Positions 9,745 to 25,298 of a stretch of 64,000 bases of DNA are shown in pieces. This DNA comes from Prauserella muralis (GTDB taxonomy: Bacteria > Actinomycetota > Actinomycetes > Mycobacteriales > Pseudonocardiaceae). Below the pieces are notes generated by a model. The model saw nothing but the letters and a program-made list of their open reading frames with translations, ran no database searches and had not been told where the DNA came from. Each line of letters opens with the position of its first letter. Position 1 is the first letter of the stretch. The DNA lies in contig NZ_MASW01000002.1 of the NCBI RefSeq assembly GCF_003202285.1, forward strand, positions 62,001 through 126,000, in the 5' to 3' direction. Both the position numbers and the translations under genes were made by a program.

Positions 9745-10569
9745 ATGTCCTCCGACAGCGCAGAGCAGACCGAGTCCGAGGTCGTCGTTCTCGACAACGG
9801 CGTGCCCACGGCGGCTCGGGTCTACGACGTCATGCTCGACGGCAAGGACAACTACGCGATCGACAGGCGGGTCGCGGAGGCGAGCCTGGCGGTGATGCCG
9901 GAGCTCAAGGAGATCGCCATCCACAACAGAGCGATCCTGCATCGTGTGGTGCGTCATCTCGCCGCCGACGAGGGCATCACGCAGTTCCTCGACCTCGGTT
10001 CGGGGCTGCCGACCGTGCGCAACACCCACGAGGTGGCGCAGGACGCCAACCCCGAGGCCAAGGTCGTGTACGTCGACATCGACCCGATCGTGCTCGCGCA
10101 CGGCAGGGCGTTGCTGCAGGACAACCCCAACACCCGGGTCGTCACCGCGGACATCCGCAAGCCCGCCGAGGTGCTCGCGCACCCGGACGTGCAGGAGATG
10201 ATCGACTTCAGCAAGCCGGTGTGCGTGATGCTGTGCGGCATCCTGCACCACATCCTCGACGAGGAGGACCCGGAGGGAATCGTCAAGGCCCTCCGCGAGG
10301 CCGTTCCGTCCGGTTCCTACTTCTTCATCACGAATTTCACGCGATTGAGTGATTCTCCGGAGAGCGAGGAGCTGGAGCGGGTCCTGTTGTCGCAGCTCGG
10401 CACGGGCCGGGTGCGCACGCCGGAGGAGCTGGAGCGGTTCTTCGACGGCCTGGAGATCCTGCCCCCGGGCATCGTGCCGCTGCCGTTGTGGCGCCCGGAC
10501 GAGATCGTCACCGACGCGACGACCATCGGCGTCCGGTTCATGACCGGCGGAGTCGGCATCAAGCGCTGA
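9745..10569 (+). CDS. SAM-dependent methyltransferase, Methyltransf_19 type
   Basis: The protein has 274 residues and resembles the actinobacterial Methyltransf_19 (PF04672) group. The SAM site is FLDLGSGLPT near residue 82, followed by VVYVDIDPIVLAHG, the acidic residues that hold the ribose. The N-terminus carries the family signature ARVYDVMLDGKDNY. Substrates of this family are mostly unknown. A GAGGAG lies upstream of the ATG. A second, frameshifted family member sits at 16446-17250, so this gene is the intact paralogue. Confidence 0.88.
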   Translation: MSSDSAEQTESEVVVLDNGVPTAARVYDVMLDGKDNYAIDRRVAEASLAVMPELKEIAIHNRAILHRVVRHLAADEGITQFLDLGSGLPTVRNTHEVAQDANPEAKVVYVDIDPIVLAHGRALLQDNPNTRVVTADIRKPAEVLAHPDVQEMIDFSKPVCVMLCGILHHILDEEDPEGIVKALREAVPSGSYFFITNFTRLSDSPESEELERVLLSQLGTGRVRTPEELERFFDGLEILPPGIVPLPLWRPDEIVTDATTIGVRFMTGGVGIKR

Positions 10570-12008: not shown

Positions 12009-13079
12009 TCAGGTCTGCTCGCGGGCCCGGTGCTCGGCCACCGTGAGTACCACTGCCCGGAACGCGGCGACCACGGGAACGGCGAACAGCACCCCCGCGA
12101 TGCCGCCTTCCGTGCCGCCGACGACCAGCGCCAGCAACACGATCACCGGATGCAGGCGGGAGACGTTGCCCTGCAGGATCGGCTGCAGCACCTGCCCCTC
12201 CAGTTGCTGCACGGCGAGCACGACGCCGAGAATGATGAGCGCGGAGACCCAGCCGTTGCTCACCAGGGTGACGGCGACCGCGAGGAACCCGGACACCACG
12301 GCGCCCACGTAGGGCACGAAACCGCCGAGGAACACGAGCGCGGCCAGCGGCACGGTCAGCGGTACGCCGACCACGGCCAGCCCGATGCCGATGCCGATGG
12401 CGTCGATGAGTGCCACGAGGGCGGTCACCCACACGTACTGGACGATGCCGTGGAAGGCGCGCCGGCCCGCCTGGTCGACCATCTCCCGGGCGCCGGGCCG
12501 CCACAGCCGCAGGATGCCGTGCCACATCTTCGGGCCGTCGTAGAGGAACATCAGTAGCAGCACCAGGGCCAGCAGCAGGCCGACGAGCACGGAACCGACG
12601 GTGGTGAACGCGCCCATCGCCTGTGACACGACGGCGGACTGGTTGCCCTCCAGCCACTGCCGCACCCGATCGAGCAGGTTTCCTCCAAGGTGGAACGGGC
12701 TGCCGGCGAGCCACTGCTGGATCTGGCCGATGCTCTCCGAAACCCGCTGCCGCAGCTCGTCCCAGCCCTGGATGATGGCGATGACGACGAACGTGACGAT
12801 GCCGCCCGCGACGACCAGCCCGGCCAGCAGTGCGGCGAACGCCGCCAGCGGCCGGGGCCAGCGATGCCTGCAGAGCCAGCCGACGAGAGGTTCCAGCATC
12901 GCGGTGAGCAGCAGGGCGACGAGCAGCGGGATCAGCACGTAACTGAGGTGCTGTACCACGTTGCGCAGGGCCCACAGCAGGACGAGCACCACGAGCAGCT
13001 GCACCGAGACGATCGCCGCGCGGCGCAGTGTGCCCGAGGTCAGCCGGATACGCGGTTCCGGATCGGATGCTTGGTCCAC
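12009..13079 (-). CDS. AI-2E/PerM-family membrane protein
   Basis: The protein has 356 residues with seven to eight hydrophobic segments. It contains the family's long periplasmic or cytoplasmic amphipathic stretch around residues 95-150 (WDELRQRVSESIGQIQQWL). The conserved C-terminal half includes VPLTVPLAALVFLGGFVPYVGA and the end motif GILFAVPVVAAFR-like. Members export or transport small molecules or ions; the original AI-2 role applies to few of them. The GTG start has only a distant GGGAGG, so the exact start is uncertain. A stress-type promoter for the divergent gene lies upstream. Confidence 0.85.
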   Translation of the reverse strand: MDQASDPEPRIRLTSGTLRRAAIVSVQLLVVLVLLWALRNVVQHLSYVLIPLLVALLLTAMLEPLVGWLCRHRWPRPLAAFAALLAGLVVAGGIVTFVVIAIIQGWDELRQRVSESIGQIQQWLAGSPFHLGGNLLDRVRQWLEGNQSAVVSQAMGAFTTVGSVLVGLLLALVLLLMFLYDGPKMWHGILRLWRPGAREMVDQAGRRAFHGIVQYVWVTALVALIDAIGIGIGLAVVGVPLTVPLAALVFLGGFVPYVGAVVSGFLAVAVTLVSNGWVSALIILGVVLAVQQLEGQVLQPILQGNVSRLHPVIVLLALVVGGTEGGIAGVLFAVPVVAAFRAVVLTVAEHRAREQT

Positions 13080-13132
13080 GCCACCGGTTTGCCCGGCGGC
13101 CTCCCGCGGAAACCCGGCGCTCGGGTGGTGCC

Positions 13133-13157
13133 GTTTGCCTGGGCTCGCACGGGGTAG
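13133..13157 (+). promoter_or_regulatory. SigB/SigF-like promoter for the DUF3040 gene
   Basis: GTTT at 13133-13136 and GGGTAG at 13152-13157 are separated by 15 bases. This matches the GTTT-N14-17-GGGTA pattern of actinobacterial general-stress sigma factors. The -10 element is about 54 bases upstream of the DUF3040 start. Similar elements precede several small genes near 37 kb. Confidence 0.55.
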
Positions 13158-13210
13158 TCAGTTCGCATCGACCACGTCCCGCGTGAAGTCCGGATGCCCG
13201 AGGAGCCGCG

Positions 13211-13510
13211 ATGCTGAGTCACCACGAAAGGCAGGAGCTCGAGCGTATACAGCACTGGTTCGAACTCGACGATCCCGATCTGGCGCAGGCGCTCGGCCAG
13301 GGCACCACGCCGTCGGCCGCGCGGGGGCGAGGCCGGATCTCCCGGTTCGCCATCGACGCACTGGCCGCGGTGGTCATCGTGCTGGGGATCGTGACTCTCA
13401 ACTTCGGACTGCTCTTCCTCGGCGCGCTGGTGCTCGCCGTGGCGGCCTGCCTGCACGTGTCCGGCTGGCCGTCCTCCGAGCGGGGCGAGCGCCGGGGGCT
13501 CGCCGAGTAG
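13211..13510 (+). CDS. DUF3040-type small membrane protein
   Basis: The protein has 99 residues. The N-terminal motif MLSHHERQELERIQHWFELDDPDLA is the signature of DUF3040 proteins, common in actinobacteria. Two hydrophobic segments follow (about residues 48-62 and 65-85), and the tail is charged. The function is unknown. The stress-sigma-like promoter upstream suggests induction in stationary phase or under osmotic stress. It converges with purC. Confidence 0.85.
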   Translation: MLSHHERQELERIQHWFELDDPDLAQALGQGTTPSAARGRGRISRFAIDALAAVVIVLGIVTLNFGLLFLGALVLAVAACLHVSGWPSSERGERRGLAE

Positions 13511-13519
13511 CGGCGTCGC

Positions 13520-14368
13520 CTACGCCGGCCGGCCCCACGTGTTGCCCGTGATGCGTTCGTACACCTCGGCGTAGCGGGCGCGCGTGGCCTCCACGACGTC
13601 GGGAGGCACCTCGGGTCCCGGCGGGGTCCTGTCCCAGCCGGTGCCGGTCGCCCAGTCGCGGACGAACTGCTTGTCGAAGGAGAACTGCGGGCGGCCGGGC
13701 TCCCACTGGTCGGCGGGCCAGAACCGCGACGAGTCCGAGGTCAGCACCTCGTCGCCGAGGGTCAGCACGCCGTCCTCGTCCAGGCCGAACTCCAGCTTGG
13801 TGTCGGCGACGATGATGCCCCTCGCGGCGGCGTGCTCGGCACCCGCGCGGTAGATGTCGAGCGTGAGCGCGCGCAGGCGCTCAGCGAGGTCGCCGCCGAC
13901 CTGGGCGACCACGTCGTCGAAGGTGATGAACTCGTCGTGGCCGACATCGGCCTTGGTCGTCGGCGTGAAGATCGGCTCCGGCAGGCGGCTGCCCTCCTGC
14001 AGCCCCTCGGGCAGCGCGACCCCGGACACCGTGCCGTTGGCCTGGTACTCGCGCAGGCCGAGGCCGGTGAGGTAGCCGCGCGCGATGCACTCCACCTTCA
14101 CCATGTCCAGCGGCTTGCAGCGGATGGCCCGGCCGGCGAACTCCGGCGGTACCTCGGTGGCCGAGAGCACGTGGTTGGGCACGACGTCGCGCAGGCGATC
14201 GAACCACCACAGCGAGAGCTGCGTGAGAAGAGCACCCTTGCCGGGAATCGGCGTCGGCAGTGTCACGTCGTAGACCGAAACCCGGTCGGAGGCGACGAGC
14301 AGGATGTCCCCGCCGTCTTCGTAGAGGTCCCGGACCTTGCCGGCGTGGATGTGCTTCACGCCCGACAT
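13520..14368 (-). CDS. purC: Phosphoribosylaminoimidazole-succinocarboxamide synthase
   Basis: The protein has 282 residues and is the SAICAR synthetase of de novo purine synthesis. It joins CAIR and aspartate with ATP. Family motifs are clear: HIHAGKVRDLYE at the start, LLVASDRVSVYDV near 25, the CIARGYLTGLG motif near 105, and DTKLEFG followed by SSRFWP near 190-215. The ATG at 14366-14368 matches the usual family N-terminus; a 26-residue upstream extension is probably untranslated. It stands alone, not in a pur operon, in this window. Confidence 0.96.
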   Translation of the reverse strand: MSGVKHIHAGKVRDLYEDGGDILLVASDRVSVYDVTLPTPIPGKGALLTQLSLWWFDRLRDVVPNHVLSATEVPPEFAGRAIRCKPLDMVKVECIARGYLTGLGLREYQANGTVSGVALPEGLQEGSRLPEPIFTPTTKADVGHDEFITFDDVVAQVGGDLAERLRALTLDIYRAGAEHAAARGIIVADTKLEFGLDEDGVLTLGDEVLTSDSSRFWPADQWEPGRPQFSFDKQFVRDWATGTGWDRTPPGPEVPPDVVEATRARYAEVYERITGNTWGRPA

Positions 14369-14444
14369 CGTAAGGGCCGGGGGATTGCCCGCAGCCACTT
14401 CGGGTAGCCGGTGGCCGAGCGGCGGCAGCGAGCGAGGAGGCGAC

Positions 14445-16235
14445 ATGGCCGAGACGGTGGCCGACCAGGTCGTGCGGCGGCTGGGGGAGTGGGGCGTCGA
14501 GCAGGTGTTCGGCTACCCCGGGGACGGGATCAACGGCATCCTGGCCGCCTTCGGCCGCGCCGACAACCAGCCCCGGTTCGTCCAGTCCCGGCACGAGGAG
14601 ATGTCGGCGTTCCAGGCCGTCGGCTACGCCAAGTTCAGCGGCGAGGTGGGGGTGTGCCTGGCCACCTCCGGTCCCGGAGCCATCCACCTGCTCAACGGGC
14701 TCTACGACGCCAAGCTCGACCACGTGCCGGTGGTGGCGGTCGTCGGCCAGACCGCCCGCAGCGCCATGGGCGGCAGCTACCAGCAGGAGGTGGACCTGCA
14801 GCCGCTGCTGAAGGACGTGGCCGGCGCCTACCTGGTGGAGGTCAACGTCGCCGAGCAGCTGCCCAACGCCCTCGACCGCGCGTTTCGCGCCGCCAGGGCC
14901 CGGCAGGCGCCCACCGCTGTCATCGTGCCCGCCGACCTGCAGGAGGAGGAGTACAGTCCGCCGGAGCACGAGTTCAAGCACGTACCCTCCAGCCCGCCGA
15001 GCACGCCGCATTCGGTGCTGGTGCCGCCGGAGGACGAGCTGGCACACGCCGCCGCCGTGCTCAACGCGGGGCGCAAGGTCGCGATACTCATCGGCCAGGG
15101 CGCGCGCAACGCCGCCGAGGAGGTCCGGCACGTCGCGGACGTGACCGGCGCCGGGGTGGCGAAGGCGTTGCTCGGCAAGGACGTGCTCCCCGACGACCTG
15201 CCCTACGTCACCGGCGCGATCGGCCTGCTCGGCACGCGCCCGAGCTACGAGCTGATGCGTGACTGCGACACGCTGCTGATCGTCGGCTCCAACCTGCCGT
15301 ACTCGCAGTTCCTGCCCGAGTTCGGCCAGGCGCGGGCCGTGCAGATCGACATGGACGAGAGCGTGCTCGGCATGCGCTACCCGACCGAGGTCGGGCTGGT
15401 GGGAGAGGCCAAGGCCACGCTGCGGGCTCTGCTGCCGCTGCTGGACCGGCACGAGGAGCGTTCCTGGCGGGAGACGATCGAGGGCAACGTCGCGTCGTGG
15501 TGGGAGACGATGGAGCAGCAGGCCATGCTCGACGCGAAGCCGGTGAACCCGATCCGCGTCGTGCACGAGCTGTCGCCGCGCCTCCCCGAGGACGCGATCG
15601 TCACCGCCGACTCGGGTTCGTCGACCAACTGGTACGCCCGCAACCTCCGGATGCGCGGGCGCATGCGCGGCTCCCTCTCCGGGTCGCTGGCCACGATGGG
15701 CCCGGCGGTGCCCTACGCCATCGGCGCCAAGTTCGCCTTCCCCGACAGGCCGGTGGTCGCGCTCGCGGGCGACGGTGCGATGCAGATGAACGGACTGGCG
15801 GAACTGATCACCATCGCGCGGTACCACCGGCTGTGGAGCGACCCGCGGCTGGTGGTGTGCGTCTTCCACAACAACGACCTCAACCAGGTGACGTGGGAAC
15901 TGCGGGCAATGGGCGGCGCGCCGAAGTTCGAGGAGTCACAGTCGCTGCCCGAGGTGTCCTACGCCGACTTCGCCGCGAGTCTCGGGCTGGAGGCCGTGTC
16001 CGTGGACGACCCTGCGGAGCTCGGCGCCGCGTGGGACCGGGTGCTCGCCGCTGACCGCCCGGCGGTGCTCGACGTGCGCTGTGATCCCGAGGTGCCACCG
16101 ATCCCGCCGCACGCGACGTTCGAGCAGGTGAGGTCGACGACCCAGGCCCTGCTCTCCGGCGACCCGAACGCCTGGCACGTGCTGGTGCAGGGCGCGAAGA
16201 CCAAGGCGCAGGAGCTCCTGCCCGGCGGTCGCTGA
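14445..16235 (+). CDS. Thiamine-diphosphate enzyme, pyruvate-oxidase-like
   Basis: The protein has 596 residues with the three-domain ThDP-enzyme plan. The N-terminal pyrimidine domain holds the activating Glu in QSRHEEMSAFQA (near 52). A central FAD/nucleotide-fold domain follows. The C-terminal ThDP-Mg site is GDGAMQMNG, then FHNNDLNQ about 25 residues later. The sequence resembles PoxB-type pyruvate:quinone oxidases more than acetolactate synthase, and no small-subunit gene follows. GAGGAGG precedes the ATG. A weak GATT-N15-GGGTAG element at 14383-14407 hints at stress-sigma control. A rho-independent terminator follows. Confidence 0.85.
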   Translation: MAETVADQVVRRLGEWGVEQVFGYPGDGINGILAAFGRADNQPRFVQSRHEEMSAFQAVGYAKFSGEVGVCLATSGPGAIHLLNGLYDAKLDHVPVVAVVGQTARSAMGGSYQQEVDLQPLLKDVAGAYLVEVNVAEQLPNALDRAFRAARARQAPTAVIVPADLQEEEYSPPEHEFKHVPSSPPSTPHSVLVPPEDELAHAAAVLNAGRKVAILIGQGARNAAEEVRHVADVTGAGVAKALLGKDVLPDDLPYVTGAIGLLGTRPSYELMRDCDTLLIVGSNLPYSQFLPEFGQARAVQIDMDESVLGMRYPTEVGLVGEAKATLRALLPLLDRHEERSWRETIEGNVASWWETMEQQAMLDAKPVNPIRVVHELSPRLPEDAIVTADSGSSTNWYARNLRMRGRMRGSLSGSLATMGPAVPYAIGAKFAFPDRPVVALAGDGAMQMNGLAELITIARYHRLWSDPRLVVCVFHNNDLNQVTWELRAMGGAPKFEESQSLPEVSYADFAASLGLEAVSVDDPAELGAAWDRVLAADRPAVLDVRCDPEVPPIPPHATFEQVRSTTQALLSGDPNAWHVLVQGAKTKAQELLPGGR

Positions 16236-16445: not shown

Positions 16446-17250
16446 GTGGCACTCCCCGTCGAGACCGAAGGCCAGAACGGCTCTGGCCAGCCGAGCATCG
16501 CGCGCATCAACGACTGCTGGCTGGAAGGAGCGCACCACTCGGAGGATGATCGGGAGTTCGCCAACCGCATCGCGTTGTGCGCTCCGCAGATTCCGTACCT
16601 CGTGCGGGAGTCACGCGAGCTGCTCCGCCGCATGACGACGCACCTGCTCGCTCAGGGAGTACGCCAGTTCCTCGACCTGGGCTCCGGCATCCCGACCCTC
16701 GGGCACGTGCACGAGGGTCGCCCAGAAACAGGGTGTGGACGCGCGGGTTCTGTATGTGGATCTGGAGCCCTCGGTTGCCGCCGACGGTGCCACGATCCTC
16801 GAAGGCGACGACAACGCCGCCTATCTCTGCGCCGACGTCCGCGACGCGGAGGCGATTCTCGGCTCCGCCGAGGCCCGCAGGCTGTTCGATCTCGACCAGC
16901 CTCTCGCCGTGCTGTTCATCGAGACGCTGCTGTACCTGTCCGACTCCGAGAATCCGGCGTACGTGGTCAGGTCCTATGTCGACCGGCTGCCCTCCGGCAG
17001 CTACGTGGGTATCGTGCATTTCAGCGAGGACGAGGAACTGGCCAACGGGCTCGGGCTGTTCAGCAGGATGTTCGGCACCCCGCCTGCCGTCACGCTGCGC
17101 GACGGTGACCGCGTGGTCGAGTTCCTCGATGGCCTCGACGTCGAGGATCCGGGTGTCGTGCCGGTGCCGCTGTGGAAGCCGGAGGCGGAAGGCCTCGTCA
17201 AGAACCCGGACCGGGTGCCGGTGCACGCCGGGCTCGGTCGCAAGCCCTGA
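16446..17250 (+). pseudogene. Frameshifted Methyltransf_19-type SAM methyltransferase
   Basis: The first 90 codons (GTG at 16446, 10 bases after GGAGG) encode the family N-terminus through FLDLGSGIPTLGHVHE. The frame then turns to unrelated sequence. The continuation (DARVLYVDLEPSVAADG through the end at 17250) is in the next frame. Removing one G from the GGG at 16715-16717 restores a continuous protein of about 267 residues that aligns end to end with the intact homologue at 9745. Everything else looks conserved, so this is either a recent inactivation or a sequencing error in a G run. Confidence 0.8.
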
Positions 17251-17269: not shown

Positions 17270-18199
17270 TCAGAGGTTCGCGAGCGCCACCACGAGCAGC
17301 AGTACGTCGCCCAGCGTGACCAGCGGCATGGCGCGCTTGAGCATGCGGCGGGCACTCGGCAGCGAGTGATCGGACACCTGAGTGAGGAGCCGTGCTGCGT
17401 CGCCGATGTACACGGCGTGGGCGACGATGCCGAGCAGTGCCCACAATGGTCCGTAGAGCCACCACAGCGCACCGGCGACGGCCACCGCCCCGGACAGCAG
17501 AATGCCTGCGCAGGCCACTACCGTGCGAGCAACCCCGTATCGCACGCTGGGCGTCGTGACGCCTGATGCGGTATCCACCATCCGGTCGGGCAACGACCAC
17601 CACACCGTCCGCCCGATCGAGAGCACACCGACGCCCGCGACGAGCAGCCACACCGCCGCCGGGAGAACAGCGCTGAGAGCGCCGTAGGACACGAGAAAAG
17701 GCAGCGAGACGGATGCCAGTCCGAAAGCGACCGGCCCCGCGAAGCCGCGCCGTTTCAGCCGTACCGGCTCCACGTTGTATGCCAGCTGTGCCGCGACCAG
17801 CATGGTGCCGGCGACGGCGGGCAACCACGAGCCGGTCCACACGGTGACCACAATGGACAGTACGAGTCCGGAGGCAAGCTCGGCGATGGCCCAGCGCAGC
17901 ATGCGCACCCGCCCGATCCGGGACACTGCACTCGCCAGGTAGCCCTTCTCACCGTGCCGCTCGTCGGTCGTCACGTCCACGGCGACGTTCAGCGCGAGGG
18001 GGCCGACGATCAGCAGCAGGTTGGCGAGTACGGCGACGAGCACGGGCCCGGTGGGCAGGGCACCTGCCCCGTCGGTGCCGGCTGCGGCGAAACCGGCGCC
18101 CCACGTGGCGTAGCACAGGTAGTTGACCGGCAGCGTGTACTCGAGGCGGTGCACGGCGACGAGATCACGCCACACCGAGCCACGCGCTAGTCGTGGCAC
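17270..18199 (-). CDS. UbiA-superfamily prenyltransferase (possible terpene cyclase)
   Basis: The protein has 309 residues and about eight to nine transmembrane segments. Two aspartate-rich sites typical of UbiA enzymes bind Mg-diphosphate: NVAVDVTTDE near residue 70 (an NxxxDxxxD form) and PDRMVDTASG near 195. The segment YNVEPVRLKRRG is also characteristic. It is the third gene of a leftward operon and overlaps the P450 by 13 bases. It may prenylate an acceptor with a cyclised diphosphate, or act as a UbiA-type class I terpene cyclase. The GTG start is inferred from the overlap. Confidence 0.8.
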   Translation of the reverse strand: MPRLARGSVWRDLVAVHRLEYTLPVNYLCYATWGAGFAAAGTDGAGALPTGPVLVAVLANLLLIVGPLALNVAVDVTTDERHGEKGYLASAVSRIGRVRMLRWAIAELASGLVLSIVVTVWTGSWLPAVAGTMLVAAQLAYNVEPVRLKRRGFAGPVAFGLASVSLPFLVSYGALSAVLPAAVWLLVAGVGVLSIGRTVWWSLPDRMVDTASGVTTPSVRYGVARTVVACAGILLSGAVAVAGALWWLYGPLWALLGIVAHAVYIGDAARLLTQVSDHSLPSARRMLKRAMPLVTLGDVLLLVVALANL

Positions 18200-19431
18200 G
18201 CGGTCACCTCCATCCGCAGTGCCCGTGCTGGTGCCATCGCGTGGCCACGCAGGGCCGGCACACCGGCATGCGGATCGATGCAGCGCAGGGAGCGCCGGCG
18301 CAGCAGCGCAGCGGCGATGACCCGGACCTCCAGCTGGCCGAGCTGGCTGCCGAGACAGTGCCGCGCGCCGCCGCCGAAGGGAAGGTAGTGCTGGGGCGGC
18401 TGCCGCCTGCCGAGGAAACGAGCAGGGTCGAAGCGGCGTGGGCCGGGAAAGGAATCGGGCTGGCGATGTGCCAGGTAGATGCTTGGCGCGACAACCGATC
18501 CGGCAGGCAGCCGCCTTCCGAGCAGCTCCGTGTCGCCGGGCAGCCTGCGGTTGCCCGCCGCGGGCACCGGCGGGGTGATCCGCAGGGCCTCCTGCACGCA
18601 TGCCTGAAGCAGCGGAACGGCCTTCGCGTCGGCACCGCTGTCCGACGTGGATGAAAGCTCCGCGAGCACGTCGTGCCGGACGTCATCGTGGCGATCGAGC
18701 CAGAACAGCGTCCATGCGGTGGCGGACGCGGTGGTCTCGTGGCCTGCGAACAGCAACGACACGATCTGGTCGCGGAGCTCGTCGTCGTCGATGGCTCCCA
18801 CGGGACTGTCGTCGGACAGCAGCAACGAGGCCAGCGTGGCCTGCGGCCCGGACACCCCGGCGCGAGCCTGCGTGACGAGCGCCCGGTCCAGTTCCCTGCT
18901 CGACGTGGGGAGCCCGCCGCGCAGCAGGCGGTAAGCGAACGTACGAGGCACTGAGGCGAGTGCCCGGTCGATCCAGGCTGTGAACTGCCCCAGCACGGCG
19001 GTGTCGGCGCGCCCGAGCACGATCGTGGCCGCCACCTTCAGAGTCACCTGACGGGTCCAGTCGGCCAGGGTGAACACCGTGCCCGGCGTGAGTGCGTCGA
19101 TCGCACGGCCTGCGATGCCGGTGATGAGGTCGTGGTAGTCGCCCAGCCTACGGGTACCCAGCGGGGGACCGAGTACCCGCCGGTAGGCGGCATAGCGCGG
19201 ACCGTCGGTCCACAGCAGCGACTTCGAGCCAAGGACGGGCCGCATCGCGCGGCTGCCAGGGTGGCCGAGGGAGTGATCGGAGCGAAAAATCCAGTCCACT
19301 GTGTCCGGATCCCACACCAGGAGTTTCGGCGCCGGTTCCTGGGAGAGCTCCACATAGCGGTGCGGTGAGTGCGCGTGTGCGTCGAGGAAGGCGAGTGGCC
19401 GCAGGGCCATGCGCAGCTCGGTGCGGTTCAC
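18187..19431 (-). CDS. Cytochrome P450
   Basis: The protein has 414 residues. The oxygen-binding I-helix motif is AGHETTA near residue 230, and EALR provides the ExxR pair. The heme loop is FGGGARHCLG near 365, with Cys as axial ligand. It is a soluble class I bacterial P450 without a signal peptide. Its GTG start overlaps the cyclase stop as GTGA and its end overlaps the UbiA gene, so it should tailor the terpene made by these neighbours. No ferredoxin or ferredoxin reductase is encoded nearby; redox partners must come from elsewhere. Confidence 0.94.
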   Translation of the reverse strand: MNRTELRMALRPLAFLDAHAHSPHRYVELSQEPAPKLLVWDPDTVDWIFRSDHSLGHPGSRAMRPVLGSKSLLWTDGPRYAAYRRVLGPPLGTRRLGDYHDLITGIAGRAIDALTPGTVFTLADWTRQVTLKVAATIVLGRADTAVLGQFTAWIDRALASVPRTFAYRLLRGGLPTSSRELDRALVTQARAGVSGPQATLASLLLSDDSPVGAIDDDELRDQIVSLLFAGHETTASATAWTLFWLDRHDDVRHDVLAELSSTSDSGADAKAVPLLQACVQEALRITPPVPAAGNRRLPGDTELLGRRLPAGSVVAPSIYLAHRQPDSFPGPRRFDPARFLGRRQPPQHYLPFGGGARHCLGSQLGQLEVRVIAAALLRRRSLRCIDPHAGVPALRGHAMAPARALRMEVTACHD

Positions 19432-20999
19432 GACGCCTCGATTCTCGTCTCCTCGCGGGCGACGAGCGCGGCGATCCTGGGGTCACTCAGGGCCAGGTGC
19501 TGCGCGGCGAAGATCTCCGTGTCCACGACGCGCAGCGGCGTGTACAGGTCCTTGTCGTGCCACAGCGCCGGGTGCCTGCGGCCGGGATCGACCGCGAGCA
19601 GGAACGCGCAGCCGCGCGCGGCCGCGCGCTCGATCGCGTCGTCGTCCCTGGCGACCCCGGTTCGCAGCAGGGTGCGGAGTGCGTAGGCGGTCTCCTCCCT
19701 GGTGCCCTCCCAACGACCCCAGGAGCCGTCGGCCCGCTGGCTGTCCAGCACCCACCCCACGGCCGTGCGGGCGGCCTGCGAGCCGGCCTCGCCTCCGTAG
19801 CAGGCGAGCGCGGTGGCGCAGCACACCGTCGCGTAGTACGGCGAGGCATGCCACTTGTCCTGCCATGTTCCGTCGGCGCTCTGTTGCTCCACGAGCCACC
19901 CCGTCACGGCCGTCAGCGCGCGGGCGTAACGCTCCCGCCCGGGCAGGTCCCCGCTCAGCGACGCGCCGATCGCCTGCAGCACATGCGCGTTCGTGCTCGT
20001 CGACGGTGTGCGTTCCTCGGGGAAGCAGCTGAAGTGCTCGCCCGACTGGTACGCCCAGAGGCATTCCGGAGAACGCGGGCTGCCGAGCAGCGCCAGGGCA
20101 TACAGCGCCGTGGCCGTGTCGTCGGCGTCGGGTGGCAGCCCGAGCCCACCCGCCGCGCCGTCCTCGTCGAACGCGTCGTGCAGGCTGCGCACCAGTTCGG
20201 CGGGTGCGGTGAACTCGATGCCGGAGTCCGCGAGCGTGGACAGTACCCACGACCGTTCGAACAGCGCGAGCGGCGCGGCGACGGGCACCCCGCCGCCGGC
20301 GTCCTGCACCCCGCGCAGGTAGTCGATCGACGGATGCCCGCCTTCGCGGATCTGCTCGTCGCCGAGCCAGACGGCCGTCGCAGCCGGGGAGCAGCCCACC
20401 ACGCCACCCGCCATGGGCGTGATGAACGCCGCGCCCTGGGCGGGCGCGCCGATGACCTCCAGCGAGTGCTGCAGCTTGTCCGGCACCGTGTGCCCGCGCG
20501 CCACGGCGTCGCGCAGCCCGGCCAGCAGCGCACCGTAGGTGTCCCGTGGCGTGGACAGCGGTGCGGCGCCACGCAGCCGCAGCCGCTCGTTGAGGCTGTC
20601 CACGAGGCTTGGCACCACGATCTCCACCGCGACCGTGTCGGGCAGCGACCCGGTGGGGTGCAGGCGGTTCCGGAGCGCGCGCAGCCCGCGCTCGGCCGCG
20701 GCCGCGACGGCCGGTGTCGCCGTGGGCCGCGCCGCTTCGGCGAGCAGTCCGTCGGTGGCGCTGAGCGTGGGGACGATGTCGTAGTCACCGGGCCCGCCCC
20801 AACGGCCGTCGGGTCGTTGCTCGGTGAGCAGGAACCGCACGCGCTCCGCGTGCCGCTCCAGCGACGGCGTGATCGCGACCAGCCTGCCCGTCTCGTAGAC
20901 GGAAGGCGAGAACCGTCCGGAGGGATCCGAGGACATCTCGGACAACAGCGCCGCGACCGTCTCGGTTGCCTTACCCAGCCACGAAGCGTGCGAGTGCAT
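19428..20999 (-). CDS. Class II diterpene cyclase (copalyl-diphosphate-synthase-like)
   Basis: The protein has 523 residues and is built of alpha-barrel beta/gamma domains. The class II acid motif DxDD appears as PPDADDTA near residue 290. QW-like repeats are present (QRPDGRWG near 65, QQSADGTWQDKW near 375, QRADGSWGRW near 420). It should protonate and cyclise geranylgeranyl diphosphate, leaving the diphosphate on. No class I DDxxD motif is visible. I chose the ATG at 20999 because GAGGAG lies 6 bases upstream; an open extension to 21065 has no such signal. It is first in the terpenoid operon. Confidence 0.88.
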   Translation of the reverse strand: MHSHASWLGKATETVAALLSEMSSDPSGRFSPSVYETGRLVAITPSLERHAERVRFLLTEQRPDGRWGGPGDYDIVPTLSATDGLLAEAARPTATPAVAAAAERGLRALRNRLHPTGSLPDTVAVEIVVPSLVDSLNERLRLRGAAPLSTPRDTYGALLAGLRDAVARGHTVPDKLQHSLEVIGAPAQGAAFITPMAGGVVGCSPAATAVWLGDEQIREGGHPSIDYLRGVQDAGGGVPVAAPLALFERSWVLSTLADSGIEFTAPAELVRSLHDAFDEDGAAGGLGLPPDADDTATALYALALLGSPRSPECLWAYQSGEHFSCFPEERTPSTSTNAHVLQAIGASLSGDLPGRERYARALTAVTGWLVEQQSADGTWQDKWHASPYYATVCCATALACYGGEAGSQAARTAVGWVLDSQRADGSWGRWEGTREETAYALRTLLRTGVARDDDAIERAAARGCAFLLAVDPGRRHPALWHDKDLYTPLRVVDTEIFAAQHLALSDPRIAALVAREETRIEAS

Positions 21000-21131
21000 C
21001 TGGTACTCCTCGGCCACCGCGGGCTTGAGCTGTCGTGCGCCCGCCTCCGGTAATCGGACGGACACTCAAAGTAGCACTTGCCGCGAAGATGTCACACCAG
21101 CCGTGAGCCGATCGGAGCAGCGTGACCTTGG

Positions 21132-23159
21132 TCAACCGGCCACCGTGAACTGGTTGGACGTGCCGGTGAACGCGGTGACGCGGCCCAGCAGACCCTTGGC
21201 GTCGCCGTGATAACGGACGCGATAGACGCCCTCGGCGTCCGCGGGCACGGTCCACCCGATCGTGACCTTGGACGCGGCGACTCCGTCGCGAGTCCAGCGG
21301 AAGGTCGTCGACCAGTCACCGTCATCGGCGACGGTGTGCCAGGAACTCCCTTGCCTGCGTTGAACTTCCAGGTAGGTGCCACCGCGATGCAGGTCGTTGC
21401 CCGGGTGTGCGCCCGCGAACGTGACGGACACCTGCTCGCCACGCGCGTAACGCGGTGCGGGCTGGGCGAGCACGTCACCGAAACGCCTGCCCGGCTGAGG
21501 CGAGTCCAGGACCACGCCGGGCTGCAGGGACAGCTGCCGTCCGGACAGGTCGGCGGGCGCGCTGCCCGGCGCCAGTGCGCGGCCGTCACGCAGGGCGGAG
21601 GCGAGTTCCGCCGCGGTCTGCTGCAGAGCGGGAAGCTGCCACCTGCCGAACAACGTGCTGCCGCCCTCGTACTGCTGCGCGTCGTACTCCTCCGGCGTGG
21701 TGACGTAGTGGATGTAGCCGTTGCTGTACCCGGCGACGAGCACGTCCCGTATGTCGGCGCCGACCACCTCGGCCACCGTGCGGCGCAACCGCAGGCCCGC
21801 CGCGATCGTGACCTCGCCGGGGACTCCCAGCAGGTACAGCGTTCCCACGCGCACGAGCTGCACGGGCACCCGCTCGGCGACCCACGGGTACGCAGCGTTC
21901 ATCGCGCCGATCGGCACCACGATGCCCTTGGGCGCCTGGCATTGTCTCAGCTCGGGCGACGCCGTGTAGAGCACCGATCCGGACACCGTGTCCCACAACG
22001 GGTTCTGGCCCTCGGCGAAGAGCGGAAACGCCGGACCGTCCTCGGTACTGCCCGCCGCCATCGCGGCGCCGACGGCGGGATCGCAGGTTCGATGATGCCT
22101 GCCGTCGCCGGTGAACTCGGGCCGGACCTCCACTTCGGACAGATCGACGTTGACGAGGCGCGAGTCGACGCCACCGTCCAGGCGGGTGCCCCGCGCGTTC
22201 ACCTGCGCCGCGGCGGCGTCGTACTGGCGCCTGCCGATGTCGCGGGTCCGGGCGAAGTCCTCGGGCGTCGACGGCGGCGTGAGGTCGAGGTTCGGCGACA
22301 TGTCTCCCGCGTTGGTCTGTGCGAACGCCGCGACGAAGCCCGGATCGGAGGTCCGGTAGTCCACGCCCTCCACGTCGTGTTCCCAGTGGTAGGCCGCGTA
22401 GCCCTTGTTGTCGGCGCTGATCAGCCTATTGTCGCCCGACATGCTGGTGTTGTGGGTCGCGAACCAGTTGATCGCCCCCACCGCGCGCCCGTCCCGTTCG
22501 ATGCGCAGCAGCGAGGTCTGCGGGTCGATCGCGTCGGGGAAGAAGTCCCGGTCGGCGGCCGGGTTGCGCTCGAACGCCTCCCGGGAGCGGTTGGCACTCG
22601 CGCCGGTCAGCTCACCGTGGGTGAGCGTCAGCGAGGCGGGTGCGGCGTCGGCGTGCGCGCGCATCGCCGACTCCACGATGCCCTCGGTGATCGCGTCGAA
22701 CGTCTTGCGGTGGAATCCGATGGTGGTGAGGTTGTACAGCAGATGGTGTGAGTAGCCGCCGGGGCCCGCATGGGTGTGCGTGCCGGTGATCAGCACGTTC
22801 CGTTCGGTGTAGAGATTCCCGTAGCGCTCGGCCAGCTGCCGCAGGACGGCCTGGCGCACGCTGGTGAAGATCATCGGCGAATCCACCACGACCAGCAGTA
22901 CGCGTTCGCCGGTGGCGCGGTCGGCGATGACGAACGAGCGCGCCCGCAACCGGTTGTGCAAGCCCTCGGCCCGCTGGTCGAACCGGCCGTATCCCATCAT
23001 GCCGACCTCGGCCACCTCGCCGGTGGCATCGGCGATGCCGCGTCCGACGAGATACGGTTCCGCCTGTCCGGAGGGCGCCGCGGGCGCGGTCGTGGTGACC
23101 GGTGCGGTGAGCGTTCCGAGGCCCGCGGCCACGGCGAGGGCGAGCGCGCGGATCCTCAT
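21132..23159 (-). CDS. Secreted neutral ceramidase-like enzyme
   Basis: The protein has 675 residues. A signal peptide (MRIRALALAVAAGLGTLTAP) leads into the neutral/alkaline ceramidase fold. Features include GRGIADATGEVAEVGMMGYG at the start, the zinc-site segment THTHAGPGGYSHH near 130, and SADNKGYAAYHWE near 250. The C-terminal domain is the immunoglobulin-like ceramidase tail. Such enzymes split the amide bond of ceramides, so host or environmental sphingolipids, or a related N-acyl lipid, are likely substrates. It is translated after the beta-propeller gene with an ATGA overlap, which suggests joint export. Confidence 0.88.
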   Translation of the reverse strand: MRIRALALAVAAGLGTLTAPVTTTAPAAPSGQAEPYLVGRGIADATGEVAEVGMMGYGRFDQRAEGLHNRLRARSFVIADRATGERVLLVVVDSPMIFTSVRQAVLRQLAERYGNLYTERNVLITGTHTHAGPGGYSHHLLYNLTTIGFHRKTFDAITEGIVESAMRAHADAAPASLTLTHGELTGASANRSREAFERNPAADRDFFPDAIDPQTSLLRIERDGRAVGAINWFATHNTSMSGDNRLISADNKGYAAYHWEHDVEGVDYRTSDPGFVAAFAQTNAGDMSPNLDLTPPSTPEDFARTRDIGRRQYDAAAAQVNARGTRLDGGVDSRLVNVDLSEVEVRPEFTGDGRHHRTCDPAVGAAMAAGSTEDGPAFPLFAEGQNPLWDTVSGSVLYTASPELRQCQAPKGIVVPIGAMNAAYPWVAERVPVQLVRVGTLYLLGVPGEVTIAAGLRLRRTVAEVVGADIRDVLVAGYSNGYIHYVTTPEEYDAQQYEGGSTLFGRWQLPALQQTAAELASALRDGRALAPGSAPADLSGRQLSLQPGVVLDSPQPGRRFGDVLAQPAPRYARGEQVSVTFAGAHPGNDLHRGGTYLEVQRRQGSSWHTVADDGDWSTTFRWTRDGVAASKVTIGWTVPADAEGVYRVRYHGDAKGLLGRVTAFTGTSNQFTVAG

Positions 23160-24340
23160 GACGCGAGGACGTCGGAGGGCACGGTGTAGCCGCGGACGCG
23201 CTGCGGGTGGTCACCGACGGGAATCCTGGCCACCTCGCGTGGATTGTCGTACGACACCACGGAGATGTCGTCGCTCTCGCTGTTGGACAGGAAACAATGC
23301 CTGCCGTCGGGTGAGGTCGCCGCCCAGTAGGGCTTCTTGCCCGTCGGCACGATCTCGTCGACGGTGAGTGCGGGCACCGAGAGGATCGCCGCGTAGTCGG
23401 AGATGGTGCCCGCGTCGCAGATCTTGCTGCGGTCGGCGTTCATCGCCAGCCCGTGGTGGGCCGAGTCGAGCGGATAGTCCTCACGCTTCATCCGTTTGGC
23501 TTCCTCGGACAGCGGCAGGTGCACGGTCCGCGTGATCCGCTCCTCGGCCAGGTCGTACTCCACGAAGCCGTTGTGGAACGACAGCTGGGCGTACATGGTG
23601 CGCTGGTCGGGCATGACCACGAACGGGCGGATGCCGACACCGAAGTCGATGACCTTCTTCACCTGCAGGGTGGCCGCGTCGGCGATGGTCAGCCAGCGCC
23701 TGCCCTTGGCGGCGTCCAGCAGCGGTGCGTCGGGTGCGACGACGTTGCCGATGGTGGCGTTGTAGATGGTGGAGCCATCGGCGGAGAACTGGTTCTCGTG
23801 CGGGAAGTCGCCGCTGCGGATGCGGCCGGTGATCTCGCCCGTGGCGGTGTCGACGACGTTCACGACGTTGGCGGTGGTGGCCGAGACGAGCAACGTGCGG
23901 CCGTTGGGGGAGAGGGCCATGTGGTCGGAGCGGTAGCCGTCGACGCGGGTGAACCAGCGCTGCGCGCCGGTGGCCACGTCGAAGGCGGAGACGTCGCCCA
24001 GACTCGGCCGGGACACGTACATGGTCCTGCCGTCCGGCGAGACCATGATGTCGTCCACCAGCTGGTCGTGCCCCTCGCCCGCCGTCTGCCGGATGACGAG
24101 CATCGCGACGAGCTGGTCGGGCGTCATGCCGGCCTTGCGCTCGGCGAGGTCGGGCACCACGTTGATGCGCTGGTACTTCTCGAAGGTTCTCGCGTCCACC
24201 AGGTCCACGGTGCCGTCCCAGTTGTTGCCCACGAACATGACGTCGCGGGCGGGGGGTGCGGCGTGCGCGGCGGGGGCGAGCGCCGTCGTCAGCAGGATCG
24301 TGGCGGCCAGGGCGCCCAGCCGCGCGAGGCACGTCCTCAT
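23156..24340 (-). CDS. Secreted YncE-like beta-propeller protein
   Basis: The protein has 394 residues with a signal peptide ending in AHAAPPARDV. The mature part is a repeated beta-propeller with blades such as DDIMVSPDGRTMYVS, HMALSPNGRTLLVS and WAATSPDGRHCFLS. YncE-like propellers bind ligands or partner proteins rather than catalyse. I chose the ATG at 24340 because the signal peptide begins there. It is the first gene of a two-gene secreted operon with the ceramidase. A direct link to sphingolipid binding is only inferred. Confidence 0.8.
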   Translation of the reverse strand: MRTCLARLGALAATILLTTALAPAAHAAPPARDVMFVGNNWDGTVDLVDARTFEKYQRINVVPDLAERKAGMTPDQLVAMLVIRQTAGEGHDQLVDDIMVSPDGRTMYVSRPSLGDVSAFDVATGAQRWFTRVDGYRSDHMALSPNGRTLLVSATTANVVNVVDTATGEITGRIRSGDFPHENQFSADGSTIYNATIGNVVAPDAPLLDAAKGRRWLTIADAATLQVKKVIDFGVGIRPFVVMPDQRTMYAQLSFHNGFVEYDLAEERITRTVHLPLSEEAKRMKREDYPLDSAHHGLAMNADRSKICDAGTISDYAAILSVPALTVDEIVPTGKKPYWAATSPDGRHCFLSNSESDDISVVSYDNPREVARIPVGDHPQRVRGYTVPSDVLAS

Positions 24341-24509
24341 GACTCTACCTACCCTGTAGTAGACATGAATGAGTTTCACGAGTGTGGCTGCTTCGGACGG
24401 TGAGCGCAAGGCCTGCCCGGGAGCGGCGATGATTTTCGGCAGCGGGAGCGGTCTTACCCGTCGACGAGGGGACGCCGCTCCCCGCCCACGGCAGAATCGA
24501 GGTTCCGGC

Positions 24510-25298
24510 ATGAGCACGGTCATCTCCTCCGACGGCACGGTCATCGACTACGACCGTTACGGCCAGGGCCACCCGGTGATCTTCATTGGTGGCATGACCC
24601 AGCACCGCGCGATCGACCAGGGCACCACCGAGATCGCCACGAAGCTCGCCGCCGAGGGCTTCACGGCCATCGACTACGACCGCCGCGGGCGCGGCCGGTC
24701 CGGCGACATGGCGCCCTGGGACCTGCGCCGCGAGGTCGAGGACGTGGCCGCCCTGATCGACGCCGTCGGCGGACCGGCGACCCTCTACACGAGTTCCTCG
24801 GGAGCCACGGTCGGCCTGGCGGCGGCGAGCGAGGGCGTCGGCGTCGCGGCGCTCGCGCTGTACGAGCCGCCCCTGTTCCCCGGGGCCGGGCACGCTGAGG
24901 ACCTCTCCGCCCTGCGCGCCCTGATCGCCGAGGGCAGGCACGACGAGGCCGTGCGCCACACCATGGTCCACGTCATGGGCCTGCCCGAGGAGGCCGTCGA
25001 AGGCATGGCGCAGGACCCCTCGTGGGCGGGCATGGTCTCGGTGGCGCCGACCTTCGTCTACGACCTTTCCGCCGTGCACGATGTCGGAACCGGCCCGGAC
25101 TGGCGCACCCGATGGGCAGGCGTCACCGTGCCCACGGTCGTGTTCTCCGGCGACGCCACCTTCCCCGGCATGCCGGAGGCCGCCGACGCCGTGGCGGCCG
25201 CCCTTCCGAACGCGACGCGGCGTGTGCTGCCCGGCCAGGGCCACGGCCCGGCCGCCGACGCGATCGTGCCCGCGTTGGTCGAGTTCCTGCGGCCGTGA
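24510..25298 (+). CDS. Alpha/beta hydrolase
   Basis: The protein has 262 residues. The nucleophile elbow reads YTSSSGATVG (Ser near residue 98), the oxyanion region FIGGMT near 26, and the catalytic His lies in GQGHGPA near the C-terminus. The acid is probably the Asp in FSGDATFPG. The substrate is unknown. The start follows a GAGG. It is transcribed away from the ceramidase operon, and a GNAT gene lies 25 bp downstream, possibly in the same transcript. Confidence 0.85.
   Translation: MSTVISSDGTVIDYDRYGQGHPVIFIGGMTQHRAIDQGTTEIATKLAAEGFTAIDYDRRGRGRSGDMAPWDLRREVEDVAALIDAVGGPATLYTSSSGATVGLAAASEGVGVAALALYEPPLFPGAGHAEDLSALRALIAEGRHDEAVRHTMVHVMGLPEEAVEGMAQDPSWAGMVSVAPTFVYDLSAVHDVGTGPDWRTRWAGVTVPTVVFSGDATFPGMPEAADAVAAALPNATRRVLPGQGHGPAADAIVPALVEFLRP

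Follow-up and report, generated by a model that had tools for sequence, protein, structure and literature searches.

A class II diterpene cyclase in Prauserella muralis is encoded beside a cytochrome P450 and a membrane protein of the UbiA family, and the locus raises the question of which enzyme takes over once the class II cyclase has acted. In the window analyzed here, a stretch of 64,000 nucleotides, we consider it likely that the three genes form a stand-alone diterpenoid set homologous to the ptmT2-P450-ptmT1 core of platensimycin/platencin biosynthesis, with the UbiA protein serving as the class I cyclase. The cassette would thus probably build an oxidized diterpene, the UbiA-type membrane enzyme closing further rings.

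Gene organization of the cassette

In the open-reading-frame analysis of the window, the class II cyclase (CPS), P450 and UbiA genes form a minus-strand tandem at 17270-20999. The coordinates bear out the tandem described in an earlier, sequence-only reading of this DNA, including overlaps of 4 bases between CPS and P450 and of 13 bases between P450 and UbiA. The features are as follows.

19428-20999, minus strand: CPS, a PtmT2-like class II diterpene cyclase of the CPP-synthase type, 523 aa from ATG; assigned by Pfam, PDB match and alignment
18187-19431, minus strand: cytochrome P450, 414 aa; assigned by Pfam and comparison with the Streptomyces locus G1049
18187-18199, minus strand: 13-base P450/UbiA overlap, kept in 36 of 43 loci
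17270-18199, minus strand: UbiA-family membrane protein, 309 aa; GTG start at 18199, within the P450 gene
16446-17250, plus strand: SAM methyltransferase gene (PF04672, DUF574); start at 16446 inferred from homologues

A further in-frame GTG lies upstream of the CPS start, at 21065. The cassette extends past 17270, where the methyltransferase gene converges on the UbiA gene across a gap of 19 bases. The three-gene unit of the sequence-only reading stands, but not its completeness, as this conserved convergent neighbor had been missed. Flanking proteins, scanned on both sides from rough gene calls made by a simple GC3 rule, comprise a ceramidase, a beta-propeller protein, PurC and a TPP enzyme. 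No polyprenyl synthase was found on the window's contig, in keeping with the earlier remark that no GGPP synthase is near; the genome's three sit on contigs C2, C6 and C8.

The class II cyclase and its predicted product

CPS matches SQHop_cyclase_C (PF13243, 47.6 bits), and its top PDB match is PtmT2 (5bp8, E 5.6e-120). The DADD acid motif recognized earlier is located at residues 291-294, and alignment to 5bp8 and 7xkx places its partner residues at H339 and K382 and a metal motif at D121-E126. A related class II cyclase, the terpentecin clerodane synthase Tpn2 (7xkx, E 6.5e-85), has Gly485 at the position that switches between labdane and clerodane products, whereas the window CPS has an aspartate there, D482, which aligns with D502 of PtmT2. 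Asp at this switch is the residue expected for a labdane-type product, and the catalytic and product-switch residues agree with those of PtmT2. The proposed product is copalyl diphosphate (CPP), probably with ent stereochemistry.

The UbiA protein as a candidate class I cyclase

The UbiA protein matches PF01040 (54.5 bits; cut-off 34.2) and retains both of the Asp-rich sites reported earlier, as N71xxxD75xxxD79 and D205xxxD209. Its identification as MenA, CtaB or DPPR synthase was rejected on NCBIfam scores, phylogeny and the presence of separate paralogues: its best score against the named NCBIfam models is 42.3 bits, below the cut-off of 269, and the four other UbiA paralogues of the genome carry other names (heme o, MenA, DPPR and SCO3242). 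In the tree, where the sequence-only reading had proposed looking for a grouping with menaquinone or heme enzymes, the window protein lies apart from these paralogues, the outgroup branches being long, and falls in a single clade with the ptm-type UbiA (49 rows, SH-aLRT 97). This tree was built without L004, which occupies the same place as the window protein, and without UbiA pieces shorter than 180 aa.

The window matches the core of the platensimycin/platencin pathway (PtmT2, a P450 and PtmT1) in its three families and in their order, and PtmT1 of that pathway is a UbiA-type ent-atiserene synthase with ent-CPP as substrate (PMC10301674 and PMC10847714, in excerpt). The ptm-type UbiA is represented here by the G1049 locus, standing in for PtmT1 (ACO31274); its CPS is 97% identical to PtmT2, and it has the CPS-P450-UbiA order of the window. 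Identities between the two loci are 46% for CPS, 50% for the P450 (PF00067, 160 bits for the window protein), which in G1049 likewise lies between the CPS and UbiA genes, and 41% for UbiA. The synteny and the UbiA identity, a value insufficient to fix function or product, support the earlier suggestion that the UbiA protein is the class I partner. Since PtmT1 is a published synthase of this type, the window protein is most likely a class I cyclase acting on CPP, and probably a PtmT1-like one that ionizes it. Unlike the platensimycin/platencin core, the window cassette has overlapping genes and a DUF574 methyltransferase, and its surroundings contain no ptm tailoring gene (TauD, acyl-CoA dehydrogenase, ligase or others).

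The motifs of the window protein, NxxxDxxxD and DxxxD, are nonetheless of the UbiA prenyltransferase type and differ from those of the fungal UbiA-type synthases (motif definition in PMC9835599, in excerpt). Its structure model resembles 4tq3/4tq4 (TM 0.70-0.73), and the best predicted fold matches are prenyltransferase-type UbiA structures. Such features would suit a true prenyltransferase that moves cyclized CPP or a linear chain to an acceptor, yielding a meroterpenoid or modified lipid, and the conserved methyltransferase could then modify an acceptor group. However, the ptm-type UbiA of G1049, the counterpart of the published cyclase PtmT1 (PMC10301674, in excerpt), has motifs of this type too. 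The earlier statement that no soluble class I synthase is near extends to the whole genome, in which searches with PF19086 and PF03936 revealed no further class I enzyme (the positive control covering PF19086 only). In addition, a neighbor survey of the loci, based on the same rough gene calls, found no acceptor-supplying gene conserved beside the cassette, and for this reason the meroterpenoid branch of the sequence-only reading is unsupported. We regard prenyl transfer as distinctly unlikely and as the weaker reading next to class I cyclization. Use of the UbiA fold for terpene cyclization, as proposed for the window, is also found in fungal Tps1A/Tps2A, Fma-TC and EriG; the substrate of Tps1A, Tps2A and Fma-TC is FPP, whereas CPP is proposed for the window protein. 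Among these fungal cases, methyl ester formation by a P450 together with a methyltransferase is described for Antrodia (PMC9835599, in excerpt).

Distribution in Pseudonocardiaceae and beyond

Within the family Pseudonocardiaceae, 43 of 44 UbiA-positive genomes also carry CPS, which is one gene away from UbiA in 39 of the 44. For this survey, 34 genomes were fetched besides the window's own, with 35 loci (G017 has two), and adjacency in the remaining nine of the 44 was taken from match coordinates. The CPS-P450-UbiA order is found in 30 of the 35 fetched loci, which indicates that the arrangement is more than chance. The exact 13-base overlap is retained in 36 of 43 loci, with start codons chosen by a script close to the homologous start. 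Three Lentzea pairs with identical UbiA proteins (L054/L064, L055/L069 and L056/L063) are doubly counted in the totals of 43 and 48 loci. A gene-calling artefact was rejected, as order and overlap persist even where UbiA identity falls to about 37%, and an apparently conserved neighbor family (f4) was interpreted as the P450 gene's shadow on the opposite strand and disregarded.

These associations bear on another alternative, in which the CPS product is merely dephosphorylated and oxidized to a labdane alcohol or acid while UbiA has a separate job. Some genomes do contain CPS with no UbiA close by, and 67 of 342 ent-CPPS clusters in a published survey lack a second cyclase (PMC9814783, in excerpt). 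Against this stand the retained P450/UbiA overlap, the presence of CPS in nearly every UbiA-positive family genome and the case of G122, a genome with broken UbiA motifs in which no CPS was detected; a labdane-only outcome seems very improbable. Support for the homologous-core reading, with UbiA as the class I cyclase, comes from ptm-type synteny and identity, the CPS residues shared with PtmT2, the UbiA clade, CPS co-occurrence, the failure to detect a soluble synthase and the adjacent methyltransferase clade. Counting against it are the prenyltransferase-type motifs, the genomes in which UbiA and CPS are separated (G014, G018, G091 and G162) and the CPS tree, in which genes with and without a nearby UbiA are intermixed (9 changes).

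A scan of genome contigs with PtmT2 returned 13 loci, of which one from Streptomyces jumonjinensis and eleven from Lentzea carry the cassette; the thirteenth, from a MAG, is a weak match in which the cassette is absent, and no S. platensis record is among the matches. In a Streptomyces set, UbiA accompanies CPS in 1 of 20 loci (20 of 22 CPS loci having been fetched). Searches with the A1 profile, own genome included, matched 2 of 394 genomes at class level and 3 of 198 at phylum level, counts that scored limited candidates per genome and give no absence beyond the family; the other three matches, at 63.8-70.9 bits, represent distant UbiAs. Within Pseudonocardiaceae, the cassette is patchily distributed and old.

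A linked methyltransferase

The PF04672 gene is a convergent neighbor of UbiA in 35 of 48 loci. These cassette-linked methyltransferases form one orthologous clade in a tree that omitted pieces shorter than 200 aa, among them a split copy in the genome L050. A second PF04672 gene in the window (9745-10569) falls outside this clade and was rejected as a cassette member. The solved members of the family, 2qe6 and 3giw, are annotated as uncharacterized, and a literature search found no paper on a DUF574 methyltransferase in actinobacteria.

In the window, a one-base frameshift near 16714 interrupts the methyltransferase gene. This lesion, the L050 gene split at a different place and the gene losses in G122, G014 and G091 would be consistent with decay or silencing of the pathway in this organism. 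Yet the CPS, P450 and UbiA genes keep their full length, their catalytic residues and their overlaps, and a one-base assembly error in a G run would look identical to the frameshift; decay or silencing appears unlikely.

Proposed pathway

Gene order, overlaps, homology, conservation and co-occurrence are directly established; from them we infer the substrates, stereochemistry, skeleton, and oxidation and methylation sites of the following scheme. GGPP would be supplied from elsewhere in the cell, and CPS, through its DADD motif, would protonate and bicyclize it to CPP, probably in the ent form. Embedded in the membrane, the UbiA protein would bind the diphosphate with Mg2+ via its two Asp motifs, ionize it and form more rings, much as PtmT1 produces ent-atiserene, with no prenyl transfer to an acceptor. 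The P450 would then oxidize the resulting hydrocarbon, and in most relatives the DUF574 enzyme would methylate what the P450 has made, perhaps to a methyl ester. With its methyltransferase gene frameshifted, the window organism may lack this final step.

Implications

The novelty claimed in the sequence-only reading is weakened, because both PtmT1 acting on ent-CPP (PMC10301674, in excerpt) and a survey assigning a likely UbiA cyclase to 14% of 342 ent-CPPS clusters (PMC9814783, in excerpt) are already published. The CPS + UbiA category of that survey would include the window locus; its section on these clusters is silent on P450 order, overlaps and the methyltransferase. No title among the literature matches listed names a CPS-P450-UbiA cassette. 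What is new is the distribution in Pseudonocardiaceae, the conserved 13-base overlap and the linked DUF574/PF04672 methyltransferase.

The literature examined describes few bacterial UbiA-type diterpene cyclases. A minimal set of three naturally coupled genes, which exists in many diverged copies and shares a tailoring gene, is suited to comparative expression; it could reveal the skeletons that UbiA cyclases make from CPP and the role of the P450 between ptm-type CPS and UbiA genes, and it ties the methyltransferase family of 2qe6 and 3giw to a likely substrate class. More tentatively, and with some doubt on our part, Pseudonocardiaceae might possess a widespread, vertically kept four-gene pathway that converts ent-CPP to a methylated ent-atisane-like product, such as a methyl ester, with a housekeeping or signaling rather than antibiotic role. 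If true, this would explain what one clade of DUF574 methyltransferases does and would suggest that the platencin core arose from such a cassette.

Organization and conservation of the cassette

The genes relevant to the cassette are arranged as follows in the window:

20999-19428, minus strand: class II diterpene cyclase (CPS), first in transcription order
19431-18187, minus strand: P450, second in transcription order
18199-17270, minus strand: UbiA, third in transcription order
16446-17250, plus strand: PF04672 SAM methyltransferase (MT), directly downstream of UbiA and convergent with it across a 19-base gap; frameshifted near 16714
9745-10569, plus strand: second PF04672 methyltransferase, intact, ~7 kb away and of a different clade

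The compact three-gene operon proposed in the sequence-only reading is recovered at the same coordinates, with overlaps of 4 bases (CPS/P450) and 13 bases (P450/UbiA) and with all three families confirmed by Pfam and PDB searches. It resides on contig C3. The genome (7.47 Mb, 24 contigs) is the only one of its genus in the comparison. The flanking proteins scanned (purC, TPP enzyme, ceramidase, beta-propeller protein) are unlike biosynthetic-cluster genes.

Among 200 genomes of the family, UbiA is present in 44 (E 1e-10) and CPS in 55 (E 1e-40). The family is taken to be Pseudonocardiaceae because some of its genomes encode UbiA proteins identical to those of named Lentzea. Both occur in 43 of the 44 UbiA-positive genomes, and in 39 of these 44 the cyclase lies one gene from UbiA (29 with the locus sequence fetched, the window's own, and nine read from coordinates). 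Of 43 three-gene loci, 36 retain the 13-base overlap and 24 the 4-base one. Exceptions are G014, G018 and G091, in which UbiA is separate from CPS; G162, which has a 33% CPS in the neighborhood of UbiA but not in the usual order, with a closer CPS-P450 pair located elsewhere (L108); and G122, in which both Asp motifs of UbiA are broken and CPS has no genome match at E 1e-40. This last locus (L057, Lentzea-like), a lone UbiA where relatives carry CPS-P450-UbiA-MT, looks like decay following partner loss. A CPS locus without UbiA and a single UbiA elsewhere are found in G014 (L105, L045) and G091 (L107, L049); these lone UbiAs group as their own branch (SH-aLRT 99) and are possibly a replacement working in trans. 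Another genome, G017, holds two diverged CPS-P450-UbiA sets (L041, L047).

UbiA-near and UbiA-free cyclases are intermixed on the CPS tree (9 changes), which means that the partnership was gained or lost on more than one occasion. Of 41 compared loci, 9 to 11 share the genes that flank the cassette at 12009-14446 and 21132-24544 (membrane protein, purC, ceramidase, beta-propeller), which suggests vertical inheritance at one chromosomal site.

A methyltransferase belongs to the unit

Of 48 loci, 35 have a convergent PF04672 gene no more than 124 bases from the 3′ end of UbiA. The cassette MTs form a clade of 36 rows (SH-aLRT 99), comprising 34 sufficiently long convergent MTs (the window's two pieces included), the L041 MT upstream of CPS and the MT beside the G014 CPS; twelve further PF04672 rows, including the other copies from the window genome, fall outside it. 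The MT is thus part of the cassette unit. At the G014 locus, CPS adjoins MT with purC adjacent, as in the window, and P450 and UbiA are absent. Thirteen loci have no convergent MT (L037, L038, L039, L040, L041, L045, L048, L049, L051, L052, L057, L060, L061), among which L041 has its MT on the other side and L051 is at a contig end. The window genome contains seven PF04672 genes, one being the frameshifted MT, whose profile match is interrupted at model position 88 by either a true lesion or a G-run assembly error. A split MT, broken at a different place, also occurs in L050 (G024).

The cyclase and its GGPP supply

The closest PDB match of CPS is PtmT2, the ent-CPP synthase of the platensimycin/platencin pathway (5bp8, E 5.6e-120), followed by Tpn2 of terpentecin (7xkx, E 6.5e-85). 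Aligned to both, it retains D121-E126, H339, K382 and, as previously read, the DADD motif (291-294). Its D482 occupies the position of PtmT2 D502 and Tpn2 G485; whereas Tpn2 has Gly at this product-switch position, the window CPS has Asp, like PtmT2. PMC9814783 reports that changing G485 switched the Tpn2 product from clerodane to labdane. Because the catalytic residues are kept and Asp sits at the switch position, the product is likely of the CPP type.

Profile searches with PF19086 and PF03936 gave no soluble class I synthase match in the window genome, and its three polyprenyl synthases are all on contigs other than the window's, in agreement with the earlier view that neither enzyme is nearby. 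As a positive control, PF19086 detected class I synthases in 5 of 7 genomes, among them the weak one belonging to the ptm-type cluster, and none in G000 or G043; PF03936 was run without such a control. GGPP must be supplied in trans. One possible source is the polyprenyl synthase L076 (G000:C6:195287-195988), whose top NCBIfam match (fragment scored, under cut-off) is a cargo of family 2 encapsulin.

Comparison with the platensimycin/platencin locus

Searched with the PtmT2 chain, 22 of 392 Streptomyces-type genomes contain a CPS, one of which (G1049) is 97% identical to PtmT2. The gene order beside it is CPS-P450-UbiA, the same as in the window; upstream are genes for TauD, an acyl-CoA dehydrogenase and a class I synthase (PF19086), the content to be expected if the cluster is of the ptm type. 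The accessions of PtmT1 (ACO31274) and PtmT2 (ACO31276), as they appear in a passage of PMC4004862, leave a gap that fits one gene. Identities between window and G1049 are 46% (CPS), 50% (P450) and 41% (UbiA). Whereas the window cassette has its convergent MT beside UbiA, the ptm-type locus has no MT match.

Role of the UbiA protein

Both Asp-rich sites noted previously are found in UbiA (N71xxxD75xxxD79 and D205xxxD209). Among 21 homologues, N71, D79, Y141 and D209 are invariant and D75 and D205 almost so, L057 being the row with both motifs broken. The AlphaFold model (mean pLDDT 82.4) matches a ligand-bound Archaeoglobus UbiA homologue at TM 0.70-0.73. Taken alone, these prenyltransferase-type motifs would favor a prenyltransferase, because fungal UbiA-type synthases carry different ones (according to passages of PMC9835599). 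The same motif type is, however, shared with the ptm-type UbiA of G1049. The window UbiA passes none of the named NCBIfam prenyltransferase models (top score 42.3 bits versus a cut-off of 269), and the genome's remaining four UbiA genes represent the types heme o synthase, MenA, DPPR synthase and SCO3242, so that the usual UbiA jobs are filled. The platencin-specific synthase is termed UbiA-type in a review (PMC10301674), and genetics described in a passage of PMC10847714 has ent-CPP channeled by PtmT1 and PtmT3.

The interpretation given in the sequence-only reading is partly supported. The best supported route would have CPS turn GGPP into (ent-)CPP, UbiA ionize CPP and close rings, the P450 oxidize the product and, in organisms with an intact MT, methylation follow. 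Support for the UbiA step, in which UbiA is the class I partner as proposed earlier, comes from synteny with and homology to PtmT1, from co-occurrence, and from the searches that detected no class I enzyme. Against this reading stand the prenyltransferase-type motifs, the separation of UbiA from CPS in G014, G018, G091 and G162, the MTs broken by a frameshift in the window and split in L050, and the mixed CPS tree. By analogy with a fungal UbiA-synthase cluster in which, in passages of PMC9835599, a P450 and a methyltransferase make a methyl ester on bisabolene, a methyl ester end product might be guessed from the same pairing here. The skeleton may be other than ent-atiserene; with UbiA identity only 41%, the product cannot be called.

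No description of the stand-alone four-gene arrangement was recognized in searches of the open-license literature, covered largely at passage level. The core of the window cassette belongs to the PtmT2/P450/PtmT1 kind, and what is new is its occurrence as a stand-alone four-gene set with a DUF574 methyltransferase.
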